This document shows positions 14,357 through 57,934 of a stretch of 64,000 nucleotides of DNA, piece by piece. Source of the DNA: Faecalibacterium sp. I4-1-79 (GTDB lineage Bacteria > Bacillota > Clostridia > Oscillospirales > Ruminococcaceae); contig NZ_CP094467.1 of assembly GCF_023347235.1 (NCBI RefSeq), forward strand, positions 1,860,001 to 1,924,000, in the 5' to 3' direction. The position numbers were made by a program, and so were the translations under genes. Each line of letters opens with the position of its first letter. Position 1 is the stretch's first letter. The notes beneath the pieces were generated by a model. It saw only the letters and a program-made list of their open reading frames with translations, was not told the origin of the DNA and did not search any database.

Positions 14357-14434
14357 CCGGTGTAAAAGTCATACCAATCGCGGTTATTCCAAAAATCCGA
14401 GATCGTGTTTGTGCAGAATCGTCAGTTTTGTCAA

Positions 14435-14463
14435 TTGCCTTTTTTGCCCGCAAAGACTATAAT
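14435..14463 (+). promoter_or_regulatory. Promoter of the GSIII (glnN) transcript
   Basis: -35 TTGCCT (14435-14440), 17-base spacer, perfect -10 TATAAT (14458-14463). Transcription should start near 14470, only about ten bases before the attenuator stem and roughly 140 bases before the GSIII ATG. Confidence 0.85.
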
Positions 14464-14474
14464 CTTAGCCATAG

Positions 14475-14523
14475 ACAGCAACGGCGCTGTGGGTCACCTC
14501 CTGACTCGCAGCGCCGTTTTTGT
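14475..14523 (+). promoter_or_regulatory. Leader attenuator with competing ANTAR-type hexaloop hairpin
   Basis: Terminator form: AACGGCGCTG (14480-14489) pairs with CAGCGCCGTT (14509-14518); the stem continues inward (GTCA/TGAC, loop CCTCC) and is followed by T5. Antiterminator form: ACAGC (14475-14479) pairs with GCTGT (14486-14490) around hexaloop AACGGC. The second form consumes the left arm of the first. The hexaloop has A at position 1 and G at position 4, the bases conserved in loops bound by ANTAR proteins. An ANTAR regulator is encoded at 18211-18789. Confidence 0.7.
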
Positions 14524-14537
14524 TAGGATGTAAGCAA

Positions 14538-14571
14538 GCTTTGGGTTTCTGCATTGCGGCAGACCCAAGGC
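14538..14571 (+). promoter_or_regulatory. Second hexaloop hairpin in the GSIII leader
   Basis: TCTGC pairs with GCAGA around hexaloop ATTGCG (14553-14558); after a two-base bulge the stem is extended by GCTTTGGG with CCCAAGGC. Again A is at loop position 1 and G at position 4. It lies between the attenuator and the ribosome binding site. Confidence 0.6.
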
Positions 14572-14608
14572 GAAAGAAAAAAGTAAGATCAAGTAAGGAG
14601 TAGGATTT

Positions 14609-16696
14609 ATGGCAGCAAATGTTATGGAGATCTACGGCAGCAAGGTCTTTAATGAGCACGTTATGAAGGAGCGCCTGCCCAGCGCTACCTACAAAAGCCT
14701 GAAGAACACCCTGCACAAGGGTGCTCCGCTGGACATTGAGGTGGCAAACGTTGTCGCCAGCGTGATGAAGCGCTGGGCTATGGAGCTGGGTGCCACCCAT
14801 TACACCCACTGGTTCCAGCCCCTGACCGGCATCACCAGCGAGAAGCACGATGGTTTCGTCAGCCCCGTGGGCGACGGCACCGCCATCATGGAGTTCTCCG
14901 GCAAGGAGCTGGTACGCGGCGAGCCCGACGCTTCCTCCTTCCCCTCCGGCGGTCTGCGCGCTACCTGCGAAGCACGCGGCTACACCGCATGGGACCCCAC
15001 CAGCTACGCCTTTGTGAAGGATGATGTGCTGTGCATCCCCACCGCATTCGTCAGCTACACCGGCGAGGCTTTGGATAAAAAGACTCCCCTGCTGCGTTCC
15101 ATGAACGCACTGTCCGGTCAGGCCGTCCGCATCCTGAAGCTGTTTGGCAAGGATGTGGACTACGTTTCCACCACCGTCGGCCCCGAGCAGGAATACTTCC
15201 TGGTCAAGAAGGAGGACTACGAGGCACGTCAGGATCTGATCCTCACCGGCCGCACCCTGTTCGGTGCTCCCTCTGCCAAGGGTCAGGAGCTGGAGGAGCA
15301 CTACTTCGGCGTCATCCGTCCCGAGGTTTCTGCGTTCATGAAGGAGCTGGACGAGGAGCTGTGGAAGCTGGGCGTGCCCGCCAAGACCAAGCACAACGAG
15401 GTTGCCCCCTGCCAGCACGAGCTTGCTCCCATCTTCGATACCACCAACGTAGCCATCGACCACAACCTGCTGACCATGGAAATGATGCGCAAGATCGCAC
15501 CCAAGTATGGTCTGGTCTGCCTGCAGCACGAGAAGCCCTTTGAAGGCGTGAACGGCAGCGGCAAGCACAACAACTGGTCCATGAGCACCACCCACGAGAA
15601 CCTGCTGGATCCCGGCGACACCCCCATGGAGAACCTGCAGTTCCTGATCTTCCTGGCCGCTGTTATCAAGGCTGTGGATGAGTACGCTGACCTGCTGCGC
15701 ACCTCTGTGGCCACCCCGGGCAACGATCACCGTCTGGGCGCTAACGAGGCACCTCCGGCCATCATCTCTATCTTCGTAGGCGAGGAGCTGGAAGCCGTCA
15801 TCGATGCGATCGCATCCGATTCTCCCTATGCCGGCCCCGTCAAGATGAAGATGGATCTGGGCGTGGACGTTCTGCCCAAGTTCAGCAAGGACACCACTGA
15901 CCGCAACCGTACCTCCCCCTTCGCTTTCACCGGCAACAAGTTCGAGTTCCGTATGCCCGGCTCTGCCGAGAACCTGAGCGACTGCAACACCATCCTGAAC
16001 ACCGCTGTCGCCAAGGAGCTGAAGGGCTACGCCGACGAGCTGGAGGGCGCTGAGGACTTTACCAGCGCAGCCATCGCTCTGATCAAGCGCACCATCCGCG
16101 ACCATCGCCGCGTTATCTTCAACGGCAACGGTTACACCGCCGAGTGGGAAGCCGAAGCAGCCAAGCGCGGCCTGCCCAACAAGAAGAATACCCCCGCTGC
16201 TCTGCCCGCACTGGTCGAGCCCAAGAACATCGCCCTGATGGAAGAGTTCGGCGTGCTGACCAAGGTGGAGATGGAAAGCCGCTACGAGGTTGAGATGGAG
16301 CACTACTCCAAGATCATCAACATCGAGGCTCTGACCATGCTGGAGATGGCTCGCAAGCAGCTGCTGCCCGCCATCAACGCCTACATGAGCGAGGTTGCCA
16401 ACACCGCCGCCTCCAAGCTGGCTGTCAGCGAGCACATCAGCGTGCGCAGCGAGACCAAGACTTTGGAAAAGCTTTCTTCTGACGCCGATGCCATGAGCGA
16501 TGCCATCGACACCCTGCAGGATGCCGTGAATGCCGCAAAGGCACTGCCCACCGAGAGCGAGAAGGCCGTTGCCTTCCACGATAACGTTCTCCCGGTGATG
16601 GATGCCCTGCGTGCCGCTGCCGACGATGCCGAGACTATCTGCGGCGAGGATTACTGGCCTCTGCCCAGCTACAGCAAGATGCTTTACTACGTCTGA
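14609..16696 (+). CDS. glnN: Glutamine synthetase type III
   Basis: ATP-dependent ammonium assimilation into glutamine. At 695 aa it has the length of GSIII, well above GSI. Landmarks are [10 protein letters not shown] (metal-binding Glu, near residue 190), [16 protein letters not shown] near residue 255, and [17 protein letters not shown] near residue 310 (ATP and glutamate site). AAGGAG precedes the ATG by nine bases. The gene is expressed from the promoter at 14435 through a conditional-looking terminator and is followed by a second glutamine synthetase of type I. Highly optimised codon use (few rare codons) fits strong expression. Confidence 0.95.
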
Positions 16697-16857: not shown

Positions 16858-18177
16858 ATGAGCTATTCCACCCAACAGGATATTCTGGATTTTGTGGAGG
16901 ATAACAACGTCAAATTTGTGCGCTTTGCCTTCTGTGATATTTTTGGCACCCAGAAGAACATTGCCGTGCTGGCCAGCAATCTGTCCAAGGCGCTGGAAGA
17001 GGGCGTGTGCTTTGACGGCAGTTCCATTGCGGGCTTTATGCACGTTGAGGAAAGCGACCTTGTACTGCGGCCGGATCTTTCCACCGTGACCATCCTGCCG
17101 TGGCGTCCCACCGAAGGGCGGGTGATGCAGTTCTTCTGCGATGTGGAAATGCCAGACGGCGCAGCCTTTAGCGGCAACTGCCGCGGCTTTTTGCGGGATA
17201 TGAACCGCAAATTCAAAAAGCTGGGACTTACCTGCAACGTGGGTACCGAGTGCGAGTTTTATCTGTTTGAAAAGGACGACCGTGGCCGCCCCACCTGCAT
17301 TCCCATTGACTTCGGTGGATATTTTGACGTTGCGCCGCTGGATGCGGGTGAAAACCTGCGCCGGGATATCTGCCTGACCATGGAGCAGATGGGTATGGCA
17401 CCCCAGCACAGCCACCACGAAAGCGGCAATGGCCAGAACGAGATCGACTGCCGCTACGCAGGACCGCTGAAAACCGCCGACAACGTGATGACCTTTAAGC
17501 AGATCGTCCGTGCCATTGCCATGCGCAACGGTCTCCACGCCAGCTTTCTGCCCAAGCCCCTGCCCCAGCAGGCCGGCAGCGGGCTGCACATCAACCTCTC
17601 GCTTTACATGGACGGCAAAAACCTGTTTGAGGGCGATATTGCCCCGGACAGCGTAGCAGGCAGCTTTATGGCCGGTGTACTGGCCCACAGCCGGGAACTG
17701 ACCGTGTTCACCAATCCCCTGCCCAACAGCTACCAGCGCTTTGGCTGTGACGAAGCGCCCCGCTATGTGAGCTGGAGCCGCCAGAACCGCAGCCAGCTGG
17801 TGCGCATTCCCATGGTCAAGGGTGACAGCTGCCGCATGGAGCTGCGCAGCCCAGACCCCGCCTGCAACCCGTATCTGGCCATTGGTCTGATTTTGGCTGC
17901 CGGACTGGACGGCATTGAGCAGCGCATGGTCTTGCAGCCGCCGGTGAACCGCAACCTGTTCGATGCCGCCGAGGCCGAGGGACTGGGTCTTGAGACCCTG
18001 CCCGCCACCCTTGAGGAGGCGGTGCAGGTAGCCGAGGAGAGCGAGTTTTTGCGCAAGGTGCTGCCGGAGGGGCTTTCTAAACGCTATTTCTCGGAGGAAC
18101 TCAAGCGCTGCGCCGCATTGCGGAGTGCGCCTGACCAGGCCGAGCACGAGCGCGTCTACTATTTTAACGCCATCTGA
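16858..18177 (+). CDS. glnA: Glutamine synthetase type I
   Basis: A 439-residue GSI. Seen motifs: DGSSIAGFMHVEESDLVLRP (beta-grasp end), GTECEFYLFE (metal Glu), HHESGNGQNEID, and NSYQRFGCDEAPRYVSWS (ATP and glutamate site). The length is that of the short GSI class without the adenylylation-loop extension, so control by adenylylation is unlikely. The start follows AAGGGGGG by six bases. It sits between GSIII and an ANTAR regulator gene, 33 bases from the latter, and a terminator lies just before it, which points to antitermination control of the pair. Confidence 0.94.
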   Translation: MSYSTQQDILDFVEDNNVKFVRFAFCDIFGTQKNIAVLASNLSKALEEGVCFDGSSIAGFMHVEESDLVLRPDLSTVTILPWRPTEGRVMQFFCDVEMPDGAAFSGNCRGFLRDMNRKFKKLGLTCNVGTECEFYLFEKDDRGRPTCIPIDFGGYFDVAPLDAGENLRRDICLTMEQMGMAPQHSHHESGNGQNEIDCRYAGPLKTADNVMTFKQIVRAIAMRNGLHASFLPKPLPQQAGSGLHINLSLYMDGKNLFEGDIAPDSVAGSFMAGVLAHSRELTVFTNPLPNSYQRFGCDEAPRYVSWSRQNRSQLVRIPMVKGDSCRMELRSPDPACNPYLAIGLILAAGLDGIEQRMVLQPPVNRNLFDAAEAEGLGLETLPATLEEAVQVAEESEFLRKVLPEGLSKRYFSEELKRCAALRSAPDQAEHERVYYFNAI

Positions 18178-18210
18178 TCCCTGCCTGCGCAGGAGAAAGG
18201 AGTGCGGAAA

Positions 18211-18789
18211 ATGGGACGCGCACTGATCGTAAGCGCCGGTGCCAACTCCAACGAGTATATCGCCGCGCGGCTGTCCGAGATGGGTTACAGCCGCCCGGTG
18301 ATCATTCCCAGCGGAGCCGAGGCGCGGCGCAGAATGTCGGAATCTGATTTTGAGTTGATCGTGGTCAACGCTCCCCTGCCCGATGAGTTCGGGCACGAAT
18401 TGTGCATCACCGCTGTGGAGCAGACCGATGCCGGTGTGGTCTTTTTGGTAAAGGCCGCACAGGCTGAACAATTGCTTGCCCCCCTGAACGAGCAGGGGGT
18501 GCTGCTGCTGAGCAAACCCTTCACCACCCCGTTGTTTTTGCAGGCCATGCACATGGCGGCTGCCGGCAACCACCGCTTGCAGCGTCTGCGGCAGGAGAAC
18601 GCCCGCCTGCAGGACAAGATCGGGCAGCTGCGGCTGGTCAGCCGGGCAAAGTGCTGTCTGGTAGAGCACGCCCACATGACCGAGGCCGAAGCGCACCGCT
18701 ACCTTGAAAAACAGGCTATGGACACCCGCCGCGACCGCGCCGAGGTGGCGCAGGAGGTACTGGAGGAGTACGCTGACAGAAGCGAATGA
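18211..18789 (+). CDS. ANTAR-domain RNA-binding regulator with pseudo-receiver (NitR-like)
   Basis: Residues 1 to about 115 have the shape of a response-regulator receiver, but the phospho-acceptor Asp is replaced by Asn (N53 in [12 protein letters not shown]), so ordinary phosphorylation is unlikely. A helical linker (about 118-140) leads to a C-terminal ANTAR domain ([18 protein letters not shown]..., about 143-190), which binds RNA hairpins and prevents termination. The ATG at 18211 follows GAAAGGAG by eight bases; an upstream GTG is rejected. Its place directly behind glnA matches clostridial NitR, known as an antiterminator of nitrogen genes. The GSIII leader hexaloops are the natural target. 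Confidence 0.85.
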
Positions 18790-18872: not shown

Positions 18873-20504
18873 ATGGCAAAATTTATTTTTGTGACCGGCG
18901 GCGTGGTCTCCGGTCTGGGCAAGGGCATTACTGCTGCATCTCTGGGACGGCTTTTGAAGTGCCGCGGCCTGAAGGTGGCCAGCCAGAAGCTGGACCCCTA
19001 TGTGAACGTGGATCCGGGCACCATGAGCCCGCTGCAGCACGGCGAAGTGTTCGTGACCGATGACGGCACCGAGACTGATCTGGATCTGGGACACTACGAG
19101 CGTTTTATCGACGAAAACCTGAACAAGTACTCCAACCTGACCACCGGCAAGGTGTACTGGAACGTGCTGAACAAGGAGCGTCAGGGCGCTTATCTGGGAC
19201 AAACGGTGCAGATCATCCCTCACATCACCAACGAGATCAAGAGCTACATCTACAATCTGGCATCCTCTACCGAAGCCGATGTGGTCATTACCGAGATTGG
19301 CGGCACCACCGGCGATATCGAGAGCCAGCCCTTCCTGGAGGCCATCCGTCAGGTAGGTCTGGAGCAGGGACGGGAGAACTGCTGCTTCATCCATGTGGTG
19401 CTGGTGCCCTACATCTCCGGCTCGGACGAATACAAATCCAAGCCCGCCCAGCACTCGGTCAAGGAGCTGCAGGGCATGGGCGTAAGCCCCGATATCATCA
19501 TTCTGCGCGCAGACGGCAGCGTGGGCAGCGATATCCGCCGCAAGATCAGCACCTTCTGCAACGTCAAGCCGGAGTGCGTCATTGAGAACCTGACCATGCC
19601 GAGCCTCTACCAGTGCCCGCTGATGCTGCACACCAACGGTCTGGACGATGTGGTGGTGCATCAGCTGCACTTGGATGTTCCCCCAGCCGACCTGACCGAG
19701 TGGAAGCAGGTGGTCTCCCGCATTGCCACCCGCAGCAAGACCTGCACCATCGCACTGGTGGGCAAGTACGTCAAGCTGCACGATGCTTACCTTTCGGTGA
19801 TGGAAAGCCTGTACCATGCCGGGTTTGAGAACGACAGTCAGGTGGAGATCCGCTGGGTAGAAAGCGAGGATCTGACCGATCAGGCCGCCTGCAAAGAAGC
19901 CTTTGCAGACGTGGACGGCATCATCGTGCCCGGCGGCTTTGGCGACCGCGGCATCGAGGGCATGATCCAAGCCGCCCAGTATGCCCGCGAGAACCGTGTT
20001 CCCTGCTTTGGCATCTGCCTTGGTATGCAGATCATGGTCATTGAATTTGCCCGCAATGTGCTGGGCTACAAGGACGCTAATTCCAGCGAGTTCACCCCGG
20101 ACGGTGCCCACAACGTCATCTCCCTGATGCCGGACCAGCAGGGCAACATCCCCAAGGGCGGCACTATGCGTCTGGGCAAGTACCCCTGCACGGTGAAGCC
20201 CGGCACCAAGATGGCCGAGTGCTACGGCGAGAGCGAGATCTGGGAGCGCCACCGCCACCGCTATGAGTTCAACAACGACTTCCGGCAGGAGATGCAGGAC
20301 GCCGGGCTGGTCATCTCCGGCACAAGCCCGGACGGCCATCTGGTGGAGACCGTAGAGTTGCCCGGCCGCGACTTCCATCTGGGCGCACAGTTCCACCCGG
20401 AGTTCAAGAGCCGCCCCAACCGCGCACATCCCCTGTTCAAGGGCTTTATCGCCGCTGCGCTGCGCTACCGCGCTGCCGCCCAGCGGGATATGCTGCATCT
20501 GTAA
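18873..20504 (+). CDS. pyrG: CTP synthase
   Basis: Glutamine-dependent amination of UTP to CTP. The N-terminal synthetase domain opens [20 protein letters not shown] (residues 1-20) with [13 protein letters not shown] following; the C-terminal GATase domain has the nucleophile in [12 protein letters not shown] and the His-Glu pair in [11 protein letters not shown]. 543 aa is standard. The ATG at 18873 follows AAAGAAAGG; the frame is open further upstream but the sequence there is not CTP-synthase-like. It is separated from the ANTAR gene by 83 bases and ended by a strong terminator. Confidence 0.96.
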
Positions 20505-55678: not shown

Positions 55679-55717
55679 GCAAAAAAGCTCGTCCAGAATA
55701 CCGGACGAGCCCTTTTG
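55679..55717 (-). terminator. Terminator of the candidate ncRNA
   Basis: GCTCGTCC with GGACGAGC around an 8-base loop and T6 on the minus strand; no protein gene on this strand ends here. Confidence 0.82.
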
Positions 55718-55860
55718 CACACGAAGCGGGACACTGCCTGTGCGGCGCATGGATCATAGCTGTGAAGGAGAACAGCCGGAGGAGGAGGATCCGCGCCCAG
55801 TATCCCAAAAACAAGAAGAAAAAGATTTCACACACAGCCTTGGGGCTTTGCCCTTGCTGT
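55679..55860 (-). ncRNA. Candidate structured non-coding RNA, about 180 nt
   Basis: A promoter (55867-55895) and a strong terminator (55679-55717) on the same strand bracket about 180 bases with no credible gene. The body folds strongly: minus-strand GGGATACTG (55806-55798) pairs with CAGTGTCCC (55736-55728), then GGCGC and GATCC pair with their partners inside (55797-55788 with 55755-55744, AT bulge), and GCTGT/ACAGC closes the tip (55776-55759). A large pyrimidine-rich bubble lies outside. Size and shape resemble 6S RNA, but no sequence signature proves this; an extended guaB leader is the alternative. Confidence 0.6.
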
Positions 55861-57823: not shown

Positions 57824-57836
57824 TTCTATTATAAAA

Positions 57837-57920
57837 AGGGAGCCCGCGCAAAGCGGGCTGAGAGTGGGCTGTACTGCCCTGACCTGTGACCTGATTTGGA
57901 TCATGCCAACGTAGGGAGAT
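57837..57920 (+). promoter_or_regulatory. TPP riboswitch (THI element)
   Basis: Conserved parts are present in order: GGGAGCCC, GCGGGCTGAGAG, GCCCTGACC, ACCTGATTTGGATCATGCC, AACGTAGGGAG. The CTGAGA and CTGAT-TGGAT-ATGCCA-CGTAGGG blocks are diagnostic. It precedes thiD and tenA. Confidence 0.96.
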
Positions 57921-57934
57921 AGCGCTTTTATCTG

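Follow-up and report, generated by a model that had tools for sequence, protein, structure and literature searches.

The leader of glnN, which encodes the type III glutamine synthetase (GSIII) of Faecalibacterium sp. I4-1-79, very probably represents a P1-less form of ANTAR antitermination, in which a single hexaloop hairpin at the 5′ end of the RNA controls an intrinsic terminator and serves a glutamine/ammonia regulon. We establish the anatomy of this unit, its conservation and covariation, its near-constant distance from the promoter, its co-occurrence with ANTAR proteins and its recurrence before nitrogen genes.

In the window, i.e., the whole stretch of 64,000 nucleotides that we analyzed, the glnN promoter combines a -35 element TTGCCT (14435-14440) with a -10 element TATAAT (14458-14463) across a 17-nt spacer, all on the plus strand. 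It has 10 of 12 consensus matches, one such site being found as compared to a mean of 0.4 in shuffles, and predicts a transcription start at about 14470-14471. Separated from the end of the -10 element by 11 nt is the single ANTAR-type hairpin, the putative antiterminator ACAGC-AACGGC-GCTGT (14475-14490; -6.6 kcal/mol), whose arms occupy 14475-14479 and 14486-14490 and whose loop AACGGC (14480-14485) lies 16 nt from that element. The terminator (14480-14524) comprises a 17-bp stem, 14480-14496 with 14502-14518, and a T-rich tail reaching 14524 (-30.4 kcal/mol, z -7.1). Its left arm opens with the loop and the right arm of the 5′ hairpin, rendering the two structures mutually exclusive, and given their respective energies termination is to be expected as long as nothing keeps the hairpin in place. 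The sequence and fold agree with the earlier note, which had placed the promoter about ten bases before an in-leader terminator and had drawn the same alternative fold for the terminator's left arm. The number of terminator-like patterns in the leader region (1) is no higher than in shuffles (mean 0.9), and the model CM R1 scores the terminator region at 61.8 bits, the window sequence itself being included in that model. As the hairpin lies about 5 nt past the predicted start, a P1 hairpin like that preceding it in the ANTAR leaders described so far would find no space. The further claim that no first hairpin stands 5′ of the terminator hairpin also holds, the transcript being predicted to begin at about 14470. 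The Shine-Dalgarno sequence of glnN, AAGGAG, can be read at 14595-14600. At the other end of the leader, a block AAAATCGT..TTTGTC.ATTGC (14414-14440), which includes the -35 TTGCCT, recurs over or upstream of the -35 element in many genus glnN leaders (by eye, uncounted) and is a possible UP element or activator site.

Within the genus, we compared 30 glnN leaders from 29 genomes. The scan recovered the unit in 25 of 27 ANTAR-positive genomes, and its two misses have it by eye: L021, with one stem mismatch, and L005 (genome G003), in which a 162-nt insertion has moved it upstream. This insertion, at about 1254-1415 of L005 between the glnN terminator and the gene, has inverted ends and is MITE-like. 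The genomes G019 (79% complete) and G027 (99%) have no ANTAR match, and no unit is present in their leaders. The genus loops (AACGGC, ATCGGC, ATGGGC, AAAGGC, AACGAC and AGCGGC) are invariant in A1, G4 and C6. Among 35 order leaders, the hairpin-terminator unit is found with other stems, namely AAGGC/GTCTT, GAAGC/GCTTC and GAAAC/GTTTC; in the GSI (type I glutamine synthetase) leaders of the order (n = 15), the scan detects a convincing unit in L104 only, with CM R1 adding one in L105.

A further 190 GSIII leaders comprised 110 from class genomes and 80 named ones; two of the genes, L125 and L130, also belong to the order set, while L231 and L232 come from Faecalibacterium MAGs. MAGs of this genus also supply the closest named relatives of the window's GSIII. 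Here the scan demanded the overlap of hexaloop and terminator alone, and 80 of the 91 terminator-overlapping hexaloop hairpins have both A1 and G4, with at least one such unit in 73 of the 190 leaders (37/110 class and 36/80 named). Among the carriers with names are Ruminococcus sp. YE71, Claveliimonas monacensis and Neglectibacter sp. X58, along with MAGs labelled Blautia, Holdemanella, Treponema and Spirochaetales. As background, both strands of the 80 named loci (845,631 bases) contain 304 hexaloop-terminator overlaps, 91 of which show A1 and G4, whereas any other of the 15 remaining base combinations accounts for 9-25; when a promoter lies 12-18 nt upstream, the A1 and G4 version accounts for 48 of 54 overlaps. 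In a set of 94 distinct units for which A1 and G4 were required by selection, while the closing pair, A2 and a position-5 purine were not demanded, the closing pair is C-G in 94, A2 is present in 91 and position 5 is a purine in 94. The constancy of the closing pair is in line with Ramesh 2012 (PMC3369931), which reports that the sequence of the hexaloop closing pair is important.

From a covariance model that encoded no pairs other than those of the terminator, we obtained an alignment of 46 matches in the named loci, of which 8 are on the reverse strand, five of them as mirror images of plus-strand terminators; all were kept in the counts. The 5-bp hairpin has 93.1% of its cells paired across these 46 matches, as against 24.9-55.3% when slid. 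The earlier note had staked its proposal on covariation of the hexaloop stems among relatives, and this is what we observe: 49 hairpin cells display a both-sided change compared to 20.8 in shuffles, and the covariation score is 0.564 versus 0.270. Three of five hairpin covariation measures exceed all 500 shuffles, whereas both-side-changed pairs (4 versus 3.8) and further pair types (10 versus 9.1) do not rise above them. Restricting the count to the 38 plus-strand matches leaves 177 of 188 cells paired and A1 and G4 in 36 loops. The terminator stem is variable and 96.9% paired in this alignment, which was fitted to that stem, and since the right arm of the hairpin lies within the terminator left arm, both structures share alignment columns.

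Across 255 leaders, we collected 106 distinct units, 96 of which rank first in their leader, and 93 of these have a promoter call. The -10 end to loop distance is 12-17 nt in 70 of the 93 leaders and 12-28 nt in 81, with 23 lying outside the 12-17 nt spacing. In those 70, only a few bases would separate the predicted start from the stem, too few to accommodate a P1. In 93 of 96 leaders, window included, the interval from the -10 element to the unit contains no A1/G4 hairpin whose stem is 4 or longer; the exceptions are L034 and L247, with another hexaloop about 65 nt upstream (furnished with its own terminator in L034), and L129, with another 37 nt upstream, which is possibly a true dual. The glnN leader of the window has the general ANTAR-attenuator features for which we tested but lacks what defines a canonical dual-hexaloop target, a P1 shortly before P2. 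As a positive control for dual units, a strict scan of 20 EutP loci returned none with a terminator and a looser one returned pairs in 6/20, among which L322 alone was judged a convincing dual hexaloop, a thin control given that most of the EutP genes found may not be ANTAR-controlled.

Downstream of the leader, glnN itself (14609-16696; Pfam GSIII_N, 5.4e-79) is followed on the plus strand by a glnA-like GSI (16858-18177; Pfam and alignment), an ANTAR regulator with a pseudo-receiver (18202-18789; Pfam ANTAR, 4.6e-14) and, as the last gene of the apparent operon, pyrG, coding for CTP synthase (18873-20504; Pfam). The regulator is the sole ANTAR match in the genome and scores above the Pfam cut-off. 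This sits well with the core of the earlier note, an attenuator in which a terminator competes with an ANTAR-type hexaloop and in which the downstream ANTAR protein is the likely partner. A GSI homolog lies directly upstream of the ANTAR gene in 15 of 18 order loci, and pyrG comes right after it in 4 of the 18, for which the sequence reaches only a few hundred bases beyond ANTAR.

To compare the regulators, we aligned 46 distinct ANTAR proteins, including that of the window, and transferred the EutV numbering by alignment. The phospho-Asp position is Asn in 35 of the 46 (window included) and Asp in 5, and the receiver match of the window regulator scores 25.3 bits, below the cut-off of 30.2. 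Among the EutV RNA contacts described in Walshe 2022 (PMC8934654), Tyr164, which stacks on G4, corresponds to His in 44/46 ANTARs, again including that of the window, while the equivalents of K149, E160 and M172 are conserved in 46, 46 and 45 of 46. The contacts have otherwise mostly changed: Arg142 mostly gives way to hydrophobic residues, Arg168 to Glu/Gln and Asn173 mostly to Asp, and Arg177 is variable. In our alignment AmiR too has His at the Tyr164 position. In the class, several ANTARs have high Pfam-model scores and may be EutV-type. For AmiR and NasT, control lies with a ligand-sensing partner (AmiC-AmiR, NasS-NasT), and these regulators are not known to be switched by phosphorylation. 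By analogy, a partner instead of phosphorylation may control the glnN-operon regulator, with the adjoining GSI as the candidate sensor. A version of this idea in which GSI is an inactive sensor was unsupported, its catalytic motifs being largely kept by eye relative to solved enzymes.

Over 136 genomes, units are present in 68/100 ANTAR-positive as compared to 3/36 ANTAR-negative genomes (genus 25/27 versus 0/2, order 12/17 versus 0/10 and class 31/56 versus 3/24; order and class alone 43/73 versus 3/34), an association whose p-values overstate the case because the genomes share ancestry and some are incomplete. The table leaves out genomes lacking a GSIII leader, some second GSIII copies and the class genomes G069, G071, G085, G134, G152, G198 and G200. 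Inspection by eye reveals a unit in at least two (L037, L050) of the 30/73 ANTAR-positive order and class genomes in which the scan recovered none.

Beyond GSIII, we searched 26 genus genomes with the covariance model. Among the further matches inspected, six precede an ammonium transporter gene, amt (L353, L358, L360, L361, L363, L364), and 3/3 checked unit-linked transporters contain a fused C-terminal PII domain (L361:669-2405; L363; L364). The amt hairpins have short stems of 3-4 bp, with the amt unit of the window's own genome having an unbroken stem of 3 bp; no amt adjoins the match in L354. Two matches precede a glnQ-like ABC ATPase (L359, by eye; L368, under curated cut-offs), and in G002 one stands directly before the GSI (L365) of a GSI-ANTAR pair. 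Of 60 named-locus units, 32 precede GSIII, 9 a class II glutamine amidotransferase-like gene, and 3 each amt, pyrG, a large-subunit-type glutamate synthase, asnA and asnB, with carA, guaA, nadE and purA represented once each; these units were hand-picked, are mostly promoter-linked and omit roughly one third, or more, of the 91 A1G4 overlaps. Apart from GSIII, amt and pyrG, there are 22 unit genes; of the 14 compared with NCBIfam or Pfam, 13 had the matching family, and the amidotransferase-like protein of L305 had none at the cut-off used. Most of the unit-linked proteins function in the synthesis, transport or use of glutamine, ammonia or amide nitrogen. In L242, L244 and L256 (about 1050-1520), amt and a glutamate synthase gene are divergent, each with its own hexaloop unit. 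We also observed an orphan promoter-hexaloop-terminator unit in the window's own genome, on the minus strand at G000:C1:3098791-3098840 within L362 (G000:C1:3096500-3099400), and another in L367. No glnQ-like gene is found downstream of the former, toward which an open frame on the opposite strand seems to run convergently; in G025 (L366), the unit is followed by just a fragment resembling the start of glnQ. The differences between the L362 and L367 terminator stems are compensatory, so the orphan might be a kept small RNA, a sponge or a fossil.

We accordingly picture the following scheme, conditional as it must be. By default, the nascent RNA would fold the long terminator, ending transcription at a length of about 55 nt. 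The ANTAR protein encoded in the operon, once activated (presumably when nitrogen or glutamine is limiting), would capture the 5′ hairpin via the A1/G4 loop and the C-G closing pair, thereby withholding the terminator left arm so that the polymerase would continue into glnN-glnA-ANTAR-pyrG. The predicted transcript would have no P1 recruitment hairpin, and comparable units would likewise serve amt and further ammonia/glutamine genes. The EutV precedent speaks against this scheme, since by it a one-hairpin unit should not work. In the eut leaders, P1 precedes P2 by a 5-12 nt linker; P1 deletion impairs and a linker change drastically reduces EutV-dependent induction (Ramesh 2012, PMC3369931), and both hexaloops are needed, with lengthening of the linker by 20 nt abolishing antitermination (Walshe 2022, PMC8934654). 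The latter work also describes one hexaloop as the minimal binding site, two being kept for antitermination, expects single-hexaloop sites where the transcribing polymerase sets no time limit, and leaves the extent of their importance for bioinformatic work; the published EutV crystal structure has one hexaloop per ANTAR site.

One rival reading is that the leader is a dual-hexaloop one of unusual order, the first hairpin being partnered by a second one around ATTGCG, as the earlier note had proposed. We consider this highly improbable and place the second hairpin (14543-14566), a clade-specific element downstream of the terminator, outside the system. Both window loops do carry A1 and G4, as the earlier note had seen; moreover, ten leaders have by scan two complete units in tandem, though each with its own terminator, and two genus leaders (L010, L017) have unrelated A1/G4 hexaloops past the terminator. 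Yet, although the bases at 14548-14563 allow a hairpin TCTGC-ATTGCG-GCAGA, folding 14543-14566 at minimum energy gives a three-base loop rather than a hexaloop. Further, a TCTGC-ATTGCG hairpin is found 3′ of the terminator in just 4/28 scanned genus leaders (L002-L005, L002 being the window), the other 2 of the 30 having no terminator; in L005, the 162-nt insertion separates it from the first hairpin. It would also still be untranscribed when the terminator decision is taken. The pairing with ATTGCG is therefore rejected.

A different possibility is that an attenuator of this anatomy answers to a non-ANTAR factor recognizing the A1/G4 loop, such as another RNA-binding protein, a ligand or transcription-translation coupling. 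The association with ANTAR is indeed imperfect, with 30/73 ANTAR-positive order and class genomes being without a scanned unit, several of the EutV RNA-contact residues are changed, and three ANTAR-negative genomes carry the unit; related genomes are furthermore not independent. Nevertheless, we regard such a factor as unlikely: the overlap of an A1/G4 hexaloop with a terminator is the signature of ANTAR control in the literature (Ramesh 2012, PMC3369931), and ANTAR and unit are missing together from G019, G027 and 10 ANTAR-negative order genomes (G019 and others being incomplete), the best model match anywhere in G019 having an E-value of only 0.235. Moreover, the glnN leader contains no Rfam element at gathering score, its weaker matches being unrelated and far below theirs. 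Alternatively, the ANTAR protein might bind the 5′ hairpin and act mainly on promoter escape or 5′-end stability, or the roughly 55-nt RNAs produced by termination might act as sponges titrating this protein. This would be consonant with the near-constant promoter-to-hairpin distance, with the orphan unit at G000:C1:3098791-3098840 that has no glnQ downstream, and with EutX/rli55, which Walshe 2022 (PMC8934654) names as ANTAR-sequestering RNAs. We deem it quite unlikely, in that the terminator overlap, the paired, variable stem and the T-tract are kept across units and would be needless for control of escape or stability.

ANTAR antitermination is likewise the mode of action of the AmiR, NasR and NasT leaders, and the NasT leader is likewise described as two-hairpin. 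The leaders of AmiR and NasR share a pair of stem-loops (PMC3369931), and in contrast to all of these two-hairpin systems, it is a glutamine synthetase rather than AmiC or NasS that adjoins the regulator here. With the EutV/EutW eut leaders of Enterococcus faecalis (PMC3369931, PMC8934654), the glnN unit shares the A1/G4 hexaloop, the conserved closing pair, a hairpin exclusive with the terminator, the ANTAR domain and nitrogen-related targets; it differs from what is described of them in lacking P1, in its hairpin at the predicted 5′ end and in the near-constant promoter distance, and its regulator differs from EutV in having Asn for the phospho-Asp and His for Tyr164. Clostridial ammonia-assimilation genes have been tied to ANTAR-type regulators before, in the form of the nitR antiterminator of Clostridium acetobutylicum and Clo1313_2030 of C. 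thermocellum (PMC4676874), the available text of which describes no hexaloop RNA element. The actinobacterial ANTAR RNAs (PMC8164766) also have A1/G4 hexaloops, but there dual stems with a 2-25 nt linker are required and translational control is proposed. Dual-motif searches (Ramesh 2012, PMC3369931; PMC8164766) would probably have missed the present units because they demand two hairpins. Our own searches, which mostly left aside subscription papers, preprints and the supplementary tables of Ramesh 2012, found no published description of one-hairpin 5′-terminal units.

A broader reading, on which we are evenly divided, is that a pseudo-receiver ANTAR clade, often beside a GSI that might be its glutamine-sensing holder, runs a glutamine/ammonia regulon through a single 5′-terminal hexaloop, with no requirement for P1. 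This regulon would embrace glutamine synthetase, amt, the glnQ-like transporter, glutamate synthase, asnA/B, carA, pyrG, guaA, nadE and purA, across the Clostridia and, by MAG labels, some Spirochaetes. If true, the P1 hairpin would not be a requirement of ANTAR antitermination, and we propose a nitrogen-control circuit for gut Clostridia. The large natural set of one-hairpin 5′-terminal attenuators makes P1-free competition with a terminator directly testable and bears directly on the single-hexaloop question raised in Walshe 2022 (PMC8934654). Elsewhere in the window, two structured RNAs lie above their Rfam gathering scores: an IMPDH RNA at 55704-55811 on the minus strand and a TPP riboswitch at 57826-57934 on the plus strand.
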